A program made the translations under genes and the position numbers. The notes under the pieces were generated by a model. The model did no database searches. It was not told the origin of the DNA and saw nothing but the letters and a program-made list of their open reading frames with translations. Shown here piece by piece: positions 13,892-59,470 of a DNA stretch of 64,000 nt (position 1 is the first letter of the stretch; each line of letters starts with the position of its first letter). Source of the DNA: Rhabdothermincola salaria (GTDB lineage: Bacteria; Actinomycetota; Acidimicrobiia; Acidimicrobiales; Acidimicrobilacustridaceae). Location of the stretch: positions 620,001 through 684,000 of the forward strand of contig NZ_JAJQXW010000001.1 of NCBI RefSeq assembly GCF_021246445.1. Direction: 5' to 3'.

Positions 13892-14893
13892 ATGCGATCT
13901 GGAACCGTGTCCAAGCTCGCCGTCACGGGCGTCTCCGTGACCGCTCTCGGGCTGTTCGGCTTCGCCGGACCAGCCGGTGGTCAGGAGGGCGGCACCGCCT
14001 ACGCCTTCACCGGCGAGACGCAGAGCTACACCATCCCCGACGGGGTGTGCGCCATCCGCGTCGAGCTCTCCGGCGGCAACGGCGACGACCTCGCCGGCAC
14101 GGCGCCCGCCTCGCCCGGCGTGGGCGGGGCGATCGCGGCGACGCTCGAGGTCAACCCCGGCGACGTGTACACCGTGGTCGTCGGCGGCGCCGGACAGGGC
14201 GCCGACGGTGGTTGGGGCGGCATGGCCCCGGGTGGCGACGGAGGTCTTCGCGAGACCGGTATCAGCTCGTTCGGCACGGGTGGGGGCGGCGGCAGCTACC
14301 TCGCGTTCGGTTCGACGGTGCGGATCGCCGCCGGCGGTGGTGGTGGCGCCGGCGCCAACGTCGGTGACGGCGGCGACGGGGCCATCGGCGCCGCCGCCGG
14401 TGATGACGGCGGCACCCCCGGGAACACGTTCGCCGGCGGGGCCGGCACGGGCGCCACGCAATCCGGCGTCGGTCTCGGCGGCGAGCCCGGCGACGGGGTC
14501 GGCGCCGACCCCGGTCAGGACGGCTCCGCGATGGTCGGCGGCAACGGCGGCGATGTCACCGCGCCGACCGCCGGTCCCGGTGGTGGCGGCGGCGGCGGTT
14601 GGTTCGGTGCCGGCGGTGGCGGCGGCGCCACCGTCAGCAGCAGCGGTGGTGGCGGTGGCGGCGGGAGCTCCTCGGTGGACGCTTCCGGGGTCGATGTGGC
14701 GGCCGGCTCGCTCGGCCAGGACGGCGACGGCAACGGCCAGGCCCTGATCACCCCGGCCGCCGATTGCGTCGACCCGACCACCTCCACCTCCACTTCCACC
14801 CCGACCACGACGACGTCCCCGAGCACGACCGCCACCCCCACCACCAGCACCGGCGCCCAGCCGGCGGTGGTGACCCCCCGCTTCACCGGGTAG
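13892..14893 (+). CDS. Secreted Gly-rich protein with Thr/Ser linker and C-terminal VTPRFTG
   Basis: 333 residues. A signal peptide is visible (LAVTGVSVTALGLFGFAGPAGG, about residues 8-29, charged start). Next comes a short beta-rich part with TQSYTIPDGVCAIRVELSGG, a pattern common in Gly-rich surface proteins of Actinobacteria. A region of about 200 residues very rich in Gly follows, with repeated VVGGAGQGADGG-like motifs. A Thr/Ser/Pro linker of about 30 residues ends in the last seven residues VTPRFTG. The same seven residues end the unrelated secreted protease at 58397-59470. There is no membrane anchor or LPxTG after the linker. The function is unknown; a structural or surface role is likely. 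Confidence 0.7.
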   Translation: MRSGTVSKLAVTGVSVTALGLFGFAGPAGGQEGGTAYAFTGETQSYTIPDGVCAIRVELSGGNGDDLAGTAPASPGVGGAIAATLEVNPGDVYTVVVGGAGQGADGGWGGMAPGGDGGLRETGISSFGTGGGGGSYLAFGSTVRIAAGGGGGAGANVGDGGDGAIGAAAGDDGGTPGNTFAGGAGTGATQSGVGLGGEPGDGVGADPGQDGSAMVGGNGGDVTAPTAGPGGGGGGGWFGAGGGGGATVSSSGGGGGGGSSSVDASGVDVAAGSLGQDGDGNGQALITPAADCVDPTTSTSTSTPTTTTSPSTTATPTTSTGAQPAVVTPRFTG

Positions 14894-42844: not shown

Positions 42845-44446
42845 TCAGGCTTGGGCGAGGCGGCGGCGGAACAGCGCCACCAGGGCGGCGCCGGCGGCGA
42901 GCACGAGGCCGCCGAAGGCGACCAGCGGCGTCACGATGCCGCCGGTGTAGGGCAGCACGCCGGCCGGCGTGACCGGGGCGGGAGCCGGTGGGGTGGGAGC
43001 GGCGGCCACGGTGATGCCGAGCACCTCGCTGTAGGGCTCACCGGCGGCATCGGTGCCCGAGATGACCACCTCGCACTCGCCGACGGGGAGGTCGGCGGGC
43101 AGGGGGAAGGTGGCTCGCACCCGGCCGTCGGCGTCGACGACGGCGGTGCCGACCTCGATGCCGCAGACGGTGACGGTGACGGTGGTGCCCGGCATCCAAC
43201 CGCCGGTGTCGATGTCGATGTCACCGCCGGGGACCAGGTTCGAGTCGTCGACCACCTCGCCGGTGGGGGCGGCCAGCACCTCGAGGGTGCCGTCGACCCA
43301 GGCGATGTCGTAGTTGGTGGAGGTGAGCCCGTCGCAGGTGATGGGGTAGTCGCCGACGGGCGACGCCAGCACGGCGGTGGTGGTGCAGGCGAGGGTGCCG
43401 TCGAGGTCGGCGGCGTCGTCACCGGCCACGAAGCCGGCGTAGGAGACGGAGAAGCTCGGGTTGGCCACGCCGGTCACCCGCTGGGCGTCCTGGGCGGTGA
43501 TGGTGAGGTCGGCGGCGGTGACGTCGAGGGTGCCGTCGATCCAGTCGATGTCGTAGTTGGTGGTGGTGAGGCCGTCGCAGGCGATCGGGTACCCGCCGAC
43601 CGCACTGTCGGTCACGGCGGTGGTGGTGCAGGTGAGGGTGCCGTCGAGGTCGGCGGGGCCCTCGCCGAGCACGAAGCCGGCGTAGGAGACCGTGAAGTCC
43701 GGGTTGTCGGCGCCGTACACGCGGGTGTCGTCGTCGACGGTGATGGTGAGGTCGGCGGCGGTGACGTCGAGGGTGCCGTCGATCCAGTCGATGTCGTAGT
43801 TGGTGGTGGTGAGGCCGTCGCAGGCGATCGGGTACCCGCCGACCGGGCTCTCGAGCACGGCGGTGGTGGTGCACGCGAGGGTGCCGTCGAGGTCGGCGGG
43901 GCCCTCGCCGAGCACGAAGCCGGCGTAGGAGACCGTGAGCTCGGGGTTGTCGGCGCCGTAGGCGCGGGACAGGTCGTCGGCGGTGATGGTGAGCGGCGCC
44001 GGGTCGGCGTAGATCACGGTGGCCCCGAGCGACGGAAGGAAGCTCCCCGACGGCACGTAGACCGCACCCGGTGCGATGTGGCCCAGGTCGGTGGGGGTGA
44101 CGGTGACGTCGCAGGAGGCGGCCCGGTCGCTGATGCCGGCGAGCGTGCACGGCGAGCCCTGCACGTCGAGGCGGTTGAGGATCGTGTCCACGTAGGCGGT
44201 GCCGGTGGGGACCTTCTTGGCGCCCATCCAGCCCGGGGCGATGTCGGTGACGGTGATGGTGCACGTCGACGGGCTGCCGTAGGTGTCGGCGTCGGGGCAC
44301 GACACGGCGGTGGTGGTGGGGTGCGGCAGGCCGTTGGCGTCGGCCGGACGGCTGGTGCCGACGAGCATCGTCGTGGTGGCGGCCAGGACCAGCAGCGCGG
44401 CGGCGATGAGCCGCGCGCTGGCACGAGGAAGGTGGAGGTGGGGCAC
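42845..44446 (-). CDS. Cell-wall-anchored surface protein with three MBG repeats and LPYTG sortase signal
   Basis: 533 residues from GTG 44446, with AAGGA six bases upstream. A signal peptide (LIAAALLVLAATTTMLVGTS) is followed by an Ig-like N-terminal domain. Three tandem MBG-type repeats of about 80 residues follow (each with YGADNP or like, VSYAGFVLGEGPADLDGTL, CTTTAV, YPIACDGL, TNYDIDWIDGTLDV). Another Ig-like domain leads to the sortase signal: LPYTGG, a hydrophobic helix (LVAFGGLVLAAGAALVALF) and RRRLAQA. Two of the repeats are almost identical at DNA level over more than 65 bases (near 43535 and 43775), 240 bases apart. Adhesion or surface-layer function is likely. Confidence 0.88.
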   Translation of the reverse strand: MPHLHLPRASARLIAAALLVLAATTTMLVGTSRPADANGLPHPTTTAVSCPDADTYGSPSTCTITVTDIAPGWMGAKKVPTGTAYVDTILNRLDVQGSPCTLAGISDRAASCDVTVTPTDLGHIAPGAVYVPSGSFLPSLGATVIYADPAPLTITADDLSRAYGADNPELTVSYAGFVLGEGPADLDGTLACTTTAVLESPVGGYPIACDGLTTTNYDIDWIDGTLDVTAADLTITVDDDTRVYGADNPDFTVSYAGFVLGEGPADLDGTLTCTTTAVTDSAVGGYPIACDGLTTTNYDIDWIDGTLDVTAADLTITAQDAQRVTGVANPSFSVSYAGFVAGDDAADLDGTLACTTTAVLASPVGDYPITCDGLTSTNYDIAWVDGTLEVLAAPTGEVVDDSNLVPGGDIDIDTGGWMPGTTVTVTVCGIEVGTAVVDADGRVRATFPLPADLPVGECEVVISGTDAAGEPYSEVLGITVAAAPTPPAPAPVTPAGVLPYTGGIVTPLVAFGGLVLAAGAALVALFRRRLAQA

Positions 44447-58396: not shown

Positions 58397-59470
58397 TCAG
58401 CCGGTGAAGCGGGGAGTGACCTCGGCGAGGGCCGGGGACGGCTCGGCAGGCTTCGACGAGACGGTCTGGACCGGCGGCTCGATGGGCTCGATGGGCTCGA
58501 TCGGCGGGATCGGTGGGATCGGCGGGTCGACCGGCGCGTCGGGATCCTCGAACAGCTCTGGGACGTGGATGGCGATCCAGTCGAGGTGGCTGCTCACCCG
58601 GGTGTACACCTCGGGATAGTCGATCCACCCACAGGGAACCTCGTTCCAGCTGGCGATGCCGGCCAGGGCCCACTCACCGCCCTGGCGGACCACCAGCGGC
58701 CCCCCGCTGTCACCACCGCAGGCATTGACCCAGGTCCCGGGACCCAGTGGAGACTCACCGAACGCGCACACCATGGTCTCGGGCAGGTAGAAGAAGCCGT
58801 CCTCGTCGGGCTGGTCGAGGGTGGGAAGGGACCGGCAGGTGGGGGAGTCGGGTCCGGCCGCCACCGCCACGTCGCCCTGGCGCAGGAAGGTCGGGGATGA
58901 CAACGTCTCGGTCACGCCCCATCCGAGCACCCGAGCCGGGGTGCCCAGCTCGAGCCGGGTGCCGGCCGCCACCAGCGCCAGCGTCGGTACCGAGGCGTTC
59001 CGCGACGGGTCGGCCAGCTGCACCAGGGCGATGTCGTGGTTGGGGCCCGTCGCCCGGTCCCAGTCAGGGTGGATGACGATCGAGGCGACGGCCTGACGAT
59101 CCGCAGAGGTCATGAGCTCCAGGTCGGGTTGGCCGACCACGATCTCGAACTGTTCCGGGCCGGAGAGGAAGTCCATGCAGTGGGCGGCGGTCAGCACCCA
59201 CCCGGGGGCGATGAGCGACCCGGCGCAGAACTGTCCCAGCACGGGGTCGGGTTGGTCGACCTCGGCGAAGAGCGGGCTGACGATCCAGGGGTAGGCGTCG
59301 GCCGAGGGCACCGGTTCGCCGTGCGCGATCTGCGGTGACAGGCCTGCAGGGGTGTCGGCGCCGTCGGCGCGGGCCGAACCCGGTGCCGTCATCCCCACCA
59401 CAGCCAGCGAGAAGGCCAGAGCGACGGCCACGACGGCAGGCCACCGGTCGCTGCTCAGGGGATGGAGCAC
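58397..59470 (-). CDS. Secreted trypsin-like serine protease with C-terminal VTPRFTG
   Basis: 357 residues from GTG 59470. The signal peptide (VVAVALAFSLAVVGMTAPGSARA) is followed by a short propeptide and an S1 domain: LTAAHCMD (His97), PNHDIALV (Asp146) and CGGDSGGP (Ser255), a complete triad, with the disulfide Cys pairs of the family and GIASWNEVPCGWIDYPEVYT near the end. A Pro/Ile/Glu repeat stalk (PPIPPIPPIEPIEP) leads to the last seven residues VTPRFTG. The Gly-rich secreted protein at 13892-14893 ends with the same seven residues. There is no membrane anchor. It likely acts outside the cell or on its surface. Confidence 0.9.
   Translation of the reverse strand: MLHPLSSDRWPAVVAVALAFSLAVVGMTAPGSARADGADTPAGLSPQIAHGEPVPSADAYPWIVSPLFAEVDQPDPVLGQFCAGSLIAPGWVLTAAHCMDFLSGPEQFEIVVGQPDLELMTSADRQAVASIVIHPDWDRATGPNHDIALVQLADPSRNASVPTLALVAAGTRLELGTPARVLGWGVTETLSSPTFLRQGDVAVAAGPDSPTCRSLPTLDQPDEDGFFYLPETMVCAFGESPLGPGTWVNACGGDSGGPLVVRQGGEWALAGIASWNEVPCGWIDYPEVYTRVSSHLDWIAIHVPELFEDPDAPVDPPIPPIPPIEPIEPIEPPVQTVSSKPAEPSPALAEVTPRFTG

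Follow-up and report, generated by a model that had tools for sequence, protein, structure and literature searches.

A tail-less C-terminal PxFTG pentapeptide with the properties of a surface-sorting signal on exported proteins of Acidimicrobiia

Introduction

Type IX secretion C-terminal domains, which are folded, tens of residues long and found in diderm Bacteroidota, act as the C-terminal address of exported, surface-displayed enzymes. The LPXTG signals of sortase substrates are also C-terminal, follow a flexible linker on unrelated exported proteins and carry Thr-Gly near the end; P3 of these sortase signals is Pro or Ala, and P2 is unconstrained (PMC5148588). GlyGly-CTERM and PEP-CTERM are tripartite (motif, membrane helix and basic residues) and have known cognate proteases, rhombosortase and exosortase; for these systems, the literature describes a number of unrelated exported targets in each genome, a sporadic spread over lineages and homologues with other tails (PMC3237569). 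MYXO-CTERM, the counterpart of myxosortase, marks dozens of proteins in each genome across its lineage (PMC11980579) and has an invariant Cys, a membrane helix, an Arg-rich end and predicted lipidation. The LPXTG, PEP-, GlyGly- and MYXO-CTERM signals hold their substrates through a membrane helix, and the type IX signal through a folded domain.

Here we analyse a C-terminal pentapeptide, PxFTG, that was noticed on two proteins encoded in a 64,000-nucleotide stretch of the Rhabdothermincola salaria genome (the window). It shares with LPXTG the C-terminal position after a flexible linker, the unrelated exported carriers and the nearby Thr-Gly, and the two kinds of tail are interchangeable on DUF4397 proteins; unlike LPXTG, it has neither a hydrophobic segment nor a basic cluster, and its Gly is exactly terminal. 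A loose likeness to LPxTG, proposed in the preliminary description for the pattern P-x-x-T-G, stops at Thr-Gly because the Pro sits one place further upstream: P3 is variable and P2 is Phe, in place of the Pro or Ala at P3 of the LPXTG core. As with GlyGly- and PEP-CTERM, the end is shared by non-homologous proteins that have an export signal and homologues with another anchor tail, but PxFTG is the pentapeptide alone, ending at Gly, and sortase distribution and gene neighbourhoods gave no partner for it. It resembles MYXO-CTERM in its lineage-wide presence on many proteins and has none of the other features of that tag, and it is a five-residue end in Actinomycetota, in contrast to the folded type IX domain. 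Judged by these properties, PxFTG appears to work like a sorting signal while belonging to neither the LPXTG nor the CTERM families. Searches of the open-access literature, including that on Microthrix sortases, listed no description of a PxFTG or TPRFTG-type ending.

Two unrelated window proteins share one ending

A glycine-rich exported protein of about 333 residues is encoded on the forward strand at 13892–14893, with its ATG at 13892. Read from the sequence, its signal peptide is approximately MRSGTVSKLAVTGVSVTALGLFGFAGPAGGQ (13892–13984, end approximate); a simple hydropathy rule likewise flags the frame, from an earlier start. Neither Pfam nor NCBIfam gave a match for this protein, but other glycine-rich proteins with the tag in the same genome match ALK_LTK_GRD. 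A Pro/Thr/Ser-rich linker (14774–14869) leads to the ending VTPRFTG and its TAG stop codon (14870–14893; stop 14891–14893; core PRFTG-stop 14876–14893). The second protein, a trypsin-like exported protease on the reverse strand (58397–59470; PF00089, E = 3.4e-39), has its trypsin domain at residues 59–299 (58574–59296), followed by a Pro/Glu-rich linker (58421–58540) and by VTPRFTG with a TGA stop codon (58397–58420; core PRFTG-stop 58397–58414). Its single-sequence fold was poor (mean pLDDT 38.5).

Both translations thus bear out the preliminary description in the shared end right before the stop and in the stalks that precede it. The pair is otherwise unrelated, as had been claimed: the best BLASTP match between the two is the tail itself (E = 0.078), and the remaining listed matches score lower and appear to be due to chance. 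Three of the seven tag codons differ (GTG/GTC, ACC/ACT and GGG/GGC), one more than first counted, and the stop codons are also unlike; the likeness is therefore kept at the protein level, as proposed. Against the two PxFTG-stop occurrences in the window, 0.01 were expected from 100 dinucleotide shuffles, none of which reached two.

A classical sortase substrate lies between them for comparison. This MBG-domain protein (42845–44446, reverse strand; MBG_2 PF18676, E = 1.3e-60; Gram_pos_anchor PF00746, E = 3.2e-4) ends in an LPYTG motif, a hydrophobic segment and FRRRLAQA (42848–42955; TIGR01167, 20.6 bits against a cut-off of 15.9), in agreement with the earlier identification.

The ending is common in the genome and marks exported proteins

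A narrow pattern, with x limited to Arg or Ser codons, gave 14 matches in the R. salaria genome against none for the reversed control, and each of the 14 lies at the end of an open frame for an exported-type protein. With any residue at x there were 25 matches in 3.9 Mb, again with no match for the reversed pattern. One reads TGG rather than a stop; of the 24 true PxFTG-stop ends, one closes a 21-codon chance frame and 23 belong to credible proteins, so the two carriers first noticed have become 23. Sixteen matches, one of them a chance frame, lie on the 2.0-Mb contig C1, and three of the 23 genes lie within 14 kb on contig C4; two pairs among the 23 are tandem paralogues. The 868-kb contig C2 encodes no PxFTG protein, its single match being the one that reads TGG.

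Signal peptides were judged by the simple hydropathy rule and by eye, and genes were called with our own codon-score script, so that some starts are wrong. A signal peptide-like segment opens all 23 carriers, as judged by the rule for 18 and by eye on the full gene for 5; the rule fired at a false start in a nineteenth. Relatives behave alike with few exceptions; an equal frequency of the ending on cytoplasmic proteins, which would have counted against the tag, was not seen. Two more exported proteins of this genome end in the near variants PRLTG (on C2) and PSVTG. The looser motif P-x-[FLIMV]-[STAP]-G shows no general enrichment (122 matches against 151 for the control), and of five candidates read, two were these exported proteins and three were chance frames.

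In the neighbourhoods of tagged genes, a signal peptide-like start was found for 63 of 74 tagged but 260 of 1,175 untagged called genes; when proteins with a further hydrophobic segment are set aside, 55 tagged and 123 untagged genes remain (Fisher odds ratio 24.8, p = 2e-34). For 11 tagged genes no such start was detected. Four of them (L072, L103, L136 and L305) have a signal peptide when inspected by eye or when the frame is read differently, four (L123, L140, L143 and L154) have frames that are broken, cut or unclear at the start, and one has a twin-arginine segment behind a PqqD-like domain. The PxFTG tag is restricted almost wholly to exported-type proteins.

The last two of the 11 are ubiquitin-headed proteins of genome G021 that have no signal peptide. 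Their genes are in tandem on contig 14 (L306:6991-7686:+ and L306:7709-8401:+), and each protein has an N-terminal ubiquitin domain (PF00240, E = 3.5e-28 and 7.6e-31), a stretch without a Pfam match and the tag. An alignment count gives 6 differences in 75 positions between the second protein and eukaryotic ubiquitin, and the domain of this second protein ends in RLRA instead of RLRGG; for Bacteroides fragilis ubiquitin, the accessible part of one report gives 63% identity to the human protein (PMC3352274). This implies either a cytosolic step for the tag or a different exit route for these two proteins. The twin-arginine protein comes from the same genome (L299:7093-7890:+) and combines the PqqD-like domain, the twin-arginine-type segment, an Ig-like domain and the tag in one chain. 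In genome G063, an apolipoprotein N-acyltransferase, a membrane enzyme (L142:6658-8118:+), ends in PVPAPRFTG, possibly by chance, the other reading being a membrane enzyme with a tag.

Carriers are alike only at the C terminus

Tagged genes were called in 11 genomes (57 genes), and 56 of their products were aligned, the G063 membrane enzyme being left out. These 56 match 40 Pfam families at E 0.01. Among the best 25 of the 40, the ALK/LTK glycine-rich family is the commonest (5 of 56), followed by DUF4397 (4) and beta-helix (3), with trypsin, M28, S15, sulfatase, collagen and others represented by single members; three of the 56 match choice-of-anchor Q at E up to 1, the best at 8.3e-19. Such a repertoire is typical of surface-displayed enzymes and adhesins. 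The carriers are otherwise unrelated, their likeness being confined to the C terminus. One tagged protein was modelled: its residues 355–401, which comprise linker and tag, have pLDDT below 50, against mostly above 70 for the preceding domain, so the tag is predicted to follow a disordered linker.

The motif is P-x-F-T-G-COOH, with the upstream Val and Thr of the window pair merely preferred and Arg one of many residues at x. Over 70 distinct ends, x was Arg in 46, Ala in 7, and Thr, Ser, Lys, Gln or others in the rest; Arg is over-represented because most of this set was fetched with the Arg/Ser pattern. In the alignment of 56 proteins, P, F, T and G are invariant by selection and no further column is. 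The motif is not completely rigid, since Val for Phe and Ala for Thr occur among DUF4397 genes.

Position was examined in 19 tag-positive genomes, in which the exact PxFTG-stop pattern gave 367 matches against 18 for the control. One codon added after Gly reduced this to 51 against 8, with 1 to 5 per genome: 5 exact tags read with a further codon, 9 ends reading TGG, 5 rRNA-like repeats of one sequence and 32 true longer ends. Of 20 such loci fetched, 16 had a readable stop frame, and none of these 16 encodes an exported protein with a one-residue-longer tag; they comprise 8 crotonase-like proteins (by eye), 6 short frames, 1 long frame without an export signal and 1 exact tag. The sequence VTVPVFTGA occurs in two of the short frames, both of which are out of frame within a transporter gene. 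As far as one residue tests it, the tag must therefore be exactly terminal. The crotonase-like proteins (L204, L207, L208, L211, L214, L215, L216 and L219) end in R-x-P-x-F-T-G-x, one residue longer than the tag, and are a source of false positives for looser patterns.

The tag fills one family and recurs sporadically

The narrow pattern is present in 29 of 37 genomes of the family to which the window belongs. Of the eight without it, the four searched with the wider pattern all carry that one (G010, 5 matches; G015, 11; G028, 29; G036, 6; controls 0, 2, 2 and 0, respectively), and x is accordingly free. In a sample of 296 genomes of the class, nine genomes of this family gave 183 matches against 10 for the control, eight of a further family (f36) gave 86 against 3, with just 2 each in its genus g96, and one genome of a third family (G288 of f8) gave 13 against 3; none of the other 278 exceeded 7, with G241 (7 against 1) and G130 (6 against 1) as possible weak cases. 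Genera g87, g100 and g134 of f36 count as tag-positive alongside G288, and the other genera of f8 and family f2 as tag-negative. In a phylum sample of 296 genomes, which does not contain f36 or G288, no genome outside the window's family exceeded 8 matches, and the one that reached this number had a control of 5. The PxFTG tag thus fills two families (that of the window and f36), occurs in a single genome of a third, and is at background elsewhere in the class and phylum samples. A search in named relatives found three loci, all of one protein family. The tag lineage probably includes wastewater filament formers of the Microthrix kind. One locus, L159 (CAMCTY010000006.1), carries a tagged protein of the window's family in a record titled Bifidobacterium breve, a title that looks wrong.

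Tag and sortase-type tails replace each other on DUF4397 proteins

DUF4397 genes were sought by domain, regardless of tag, in 44 genomes and found in 15. Of 12 such genes in tag-positive genomes, 8 end in PxFTG and 3 in the near variants PSVTG, PKFAG and PRVTG, the last in genome G034 in a gene with a frame break; the remaining one is cut at PSFT by a contig end. None of the 12 DUF4397 genes of tag-negative genomes ends in PxFTG. Nine of them end in a hydrophobic segment and basic residues, eight of these with a TG motif (for example, AVNTGSP), and three, all in family f8, are tail-less. Homologues with other functional tails have likewise been reported for GlyGly-CTERM in the accessible sections of Haft and Varghese (PMC3237569). 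Together with the properties of the tag, this exchange with sortase-type tails means that PxFTG behaves like a C-terminal surface-sorting signal.

Discussion

We consider it probable, on sequence grounds, that PxFTG-COOH is a C-terminal surface-sorting tag recognised by a lineage-specific component of the envelope that fixes the protein to the surface. The sorting or anchoring role suggested at the outset gains support from the 23 carriers of one genome, all with a signal peptide-like start, and the tag data and the LPYTG protein in the same genome uphold the idea of a second signal type that lacks a hydrophobic tail. Tagged proteins would be exported by Sec, and some by Tat, and would then fold, with the pentapeptide displayed at the tip of a disordered linker rich in Pro/Thr/Ser or in Ala. 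We infer that a dedicated component would recognise both the peptide and its free C-terminal Gly and fix the protein to the cell surface, the job done by the sortase tail in tag-negative relatives. Fixation might occur by transpeptidation at Thr-Gly, in which the Gly would leave and the protein would be joined through its Thr to an amine of the wall or of a surface polymer; this seems somewhat more likely than non-covalent docking. A stricter form, in which the free-standing pentapeptide is the acyl donor for a surface transpeptidase that releases one terminal glycine, much as D-Ala is released in D-Ala-D-Ala transpeptidation, giving covalent anchoring with neither membrane retention nor a sortase, is a speculative proposal that we rate as unlikely.

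Under stable non-covalent docking, the main alternative, which is possible although doubtful, the tag would be a docking or secretion signal and an envelope protein would bind the free C-terminal peptide in a PDZ-like manner, holding or exporting its cargo uncleaved. The strict need for a free C terminus favours this, the conserved Pro and Phe around a free residue fit an extended bound peptide, and there are no residues after Gly for a protease to remove. A terminal Gly is nevertheless unusual among known PDZ ligands, and our searches identified no receptor. Clustering of the neighbours of the 57 tagged genes in 11 genomes showed by eye no recurrent specific neighbour, only broad metabolic families; 20 more neighbourhoods were gene-called, and the 12 of these read by eye held no candidate partner. 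The only match in genome G178 is a tagged gene that adjoins ATP synthase genes and looks frameshifted, and no enzyme is seen in the 3 kb covered. No NCBIfam sorting-tag model specific to the PxFTG end appeared among the best 25 of 69 families.

It is improbable that the ordinary housekeeping (class E-like) sortase accepts the tag as a substrate without a tail and cuts it PxFT|G. Thr-Gly is common to the tag and to sortase signals, the tag replaces sortase-type tails on DUF4397 proteins, and at least one sortase is encoded in each of the 36 genomes tested, that of R. salaria being nearest the NCBIfam class E model, although below its cut-off (143.7 bits against 160); by eye, its gene adjoins cytochrome c maturation-like genes. 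However, tag-positive and tag-negative genomes alike have a sortase, so presence does not discriminate, and they share the same sortase family. Exactly one match was found in seven tag-positive genomes (R. salaria included) and also in G117, G332, G082 and G106, the last two counted as tag-negative despite two PxFTG matches each against a control of 0. No sortase copy therefore tracks the tag; the co-occurring sortase sought after the preliminary description did not emerge from these 36 genomes. Inheritance of the housekeeping sortase together with the tag was not seen: by eye, the G288 sortase resembles those of tag-negative f8 relatives, and no residue was common to tag-positive sortases. 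The substrate is also ill-suited: P3 varies (mostly Arg in our set) and P2 is Phe, there is no hydrophobic segment, Gly must be last, and a tailed LPYTG protein is encoded in the same genome.

A dedicated extra sortase was likewise rejected. Second sortases of several tag-positive genomes adjoin phosphate-transport-like genes (read by eye in G035 and G023), but tag-negative G190 and G220 have a similar arrangement. Among the matches listed, divergent second sortases in this setting were seen by eye at L161 (G035), L174 (G190) and L180 (G220).

A degron, or quality-control mark for an extracytoplasmic C-terminal-processing protease, would suit an exposed C-terminal peptide on a linker that the fold model predicts to be disordered, but is very improbable: the tag is kept across genera on many surface-type proteins per genome, from which selection would be expected to remove a degron, and the DUF4397 tail swap points to anchoring. 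Chance or the functionless spread of a DNA module, for which some tandem paralogues among tagged genes (L004/L005, L102 and L294) might speak, can be dismissed given the 25 matches against a reversed control of 0, the differing synonymous codon positions, the unrelated families and linkers, and the PxFTG ends of DUF4397 genes picked regardless of tag.

PxFTG as a surface-sorting tag looks like an undescribed address label that replaces the usual sortase anchor. Because its distribution is sporadic, its partner should be findable by phylogenetic profiling. A tail-less, exactly terminal signal of five residues, shared by 23 proteins in a single genome, would imply a recognition chemistry different from that of the signals compared here. 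The tag would help to predict the surface proteome of the lineage that bears it, and could serve as a compact handle for attaching proteins to cells.
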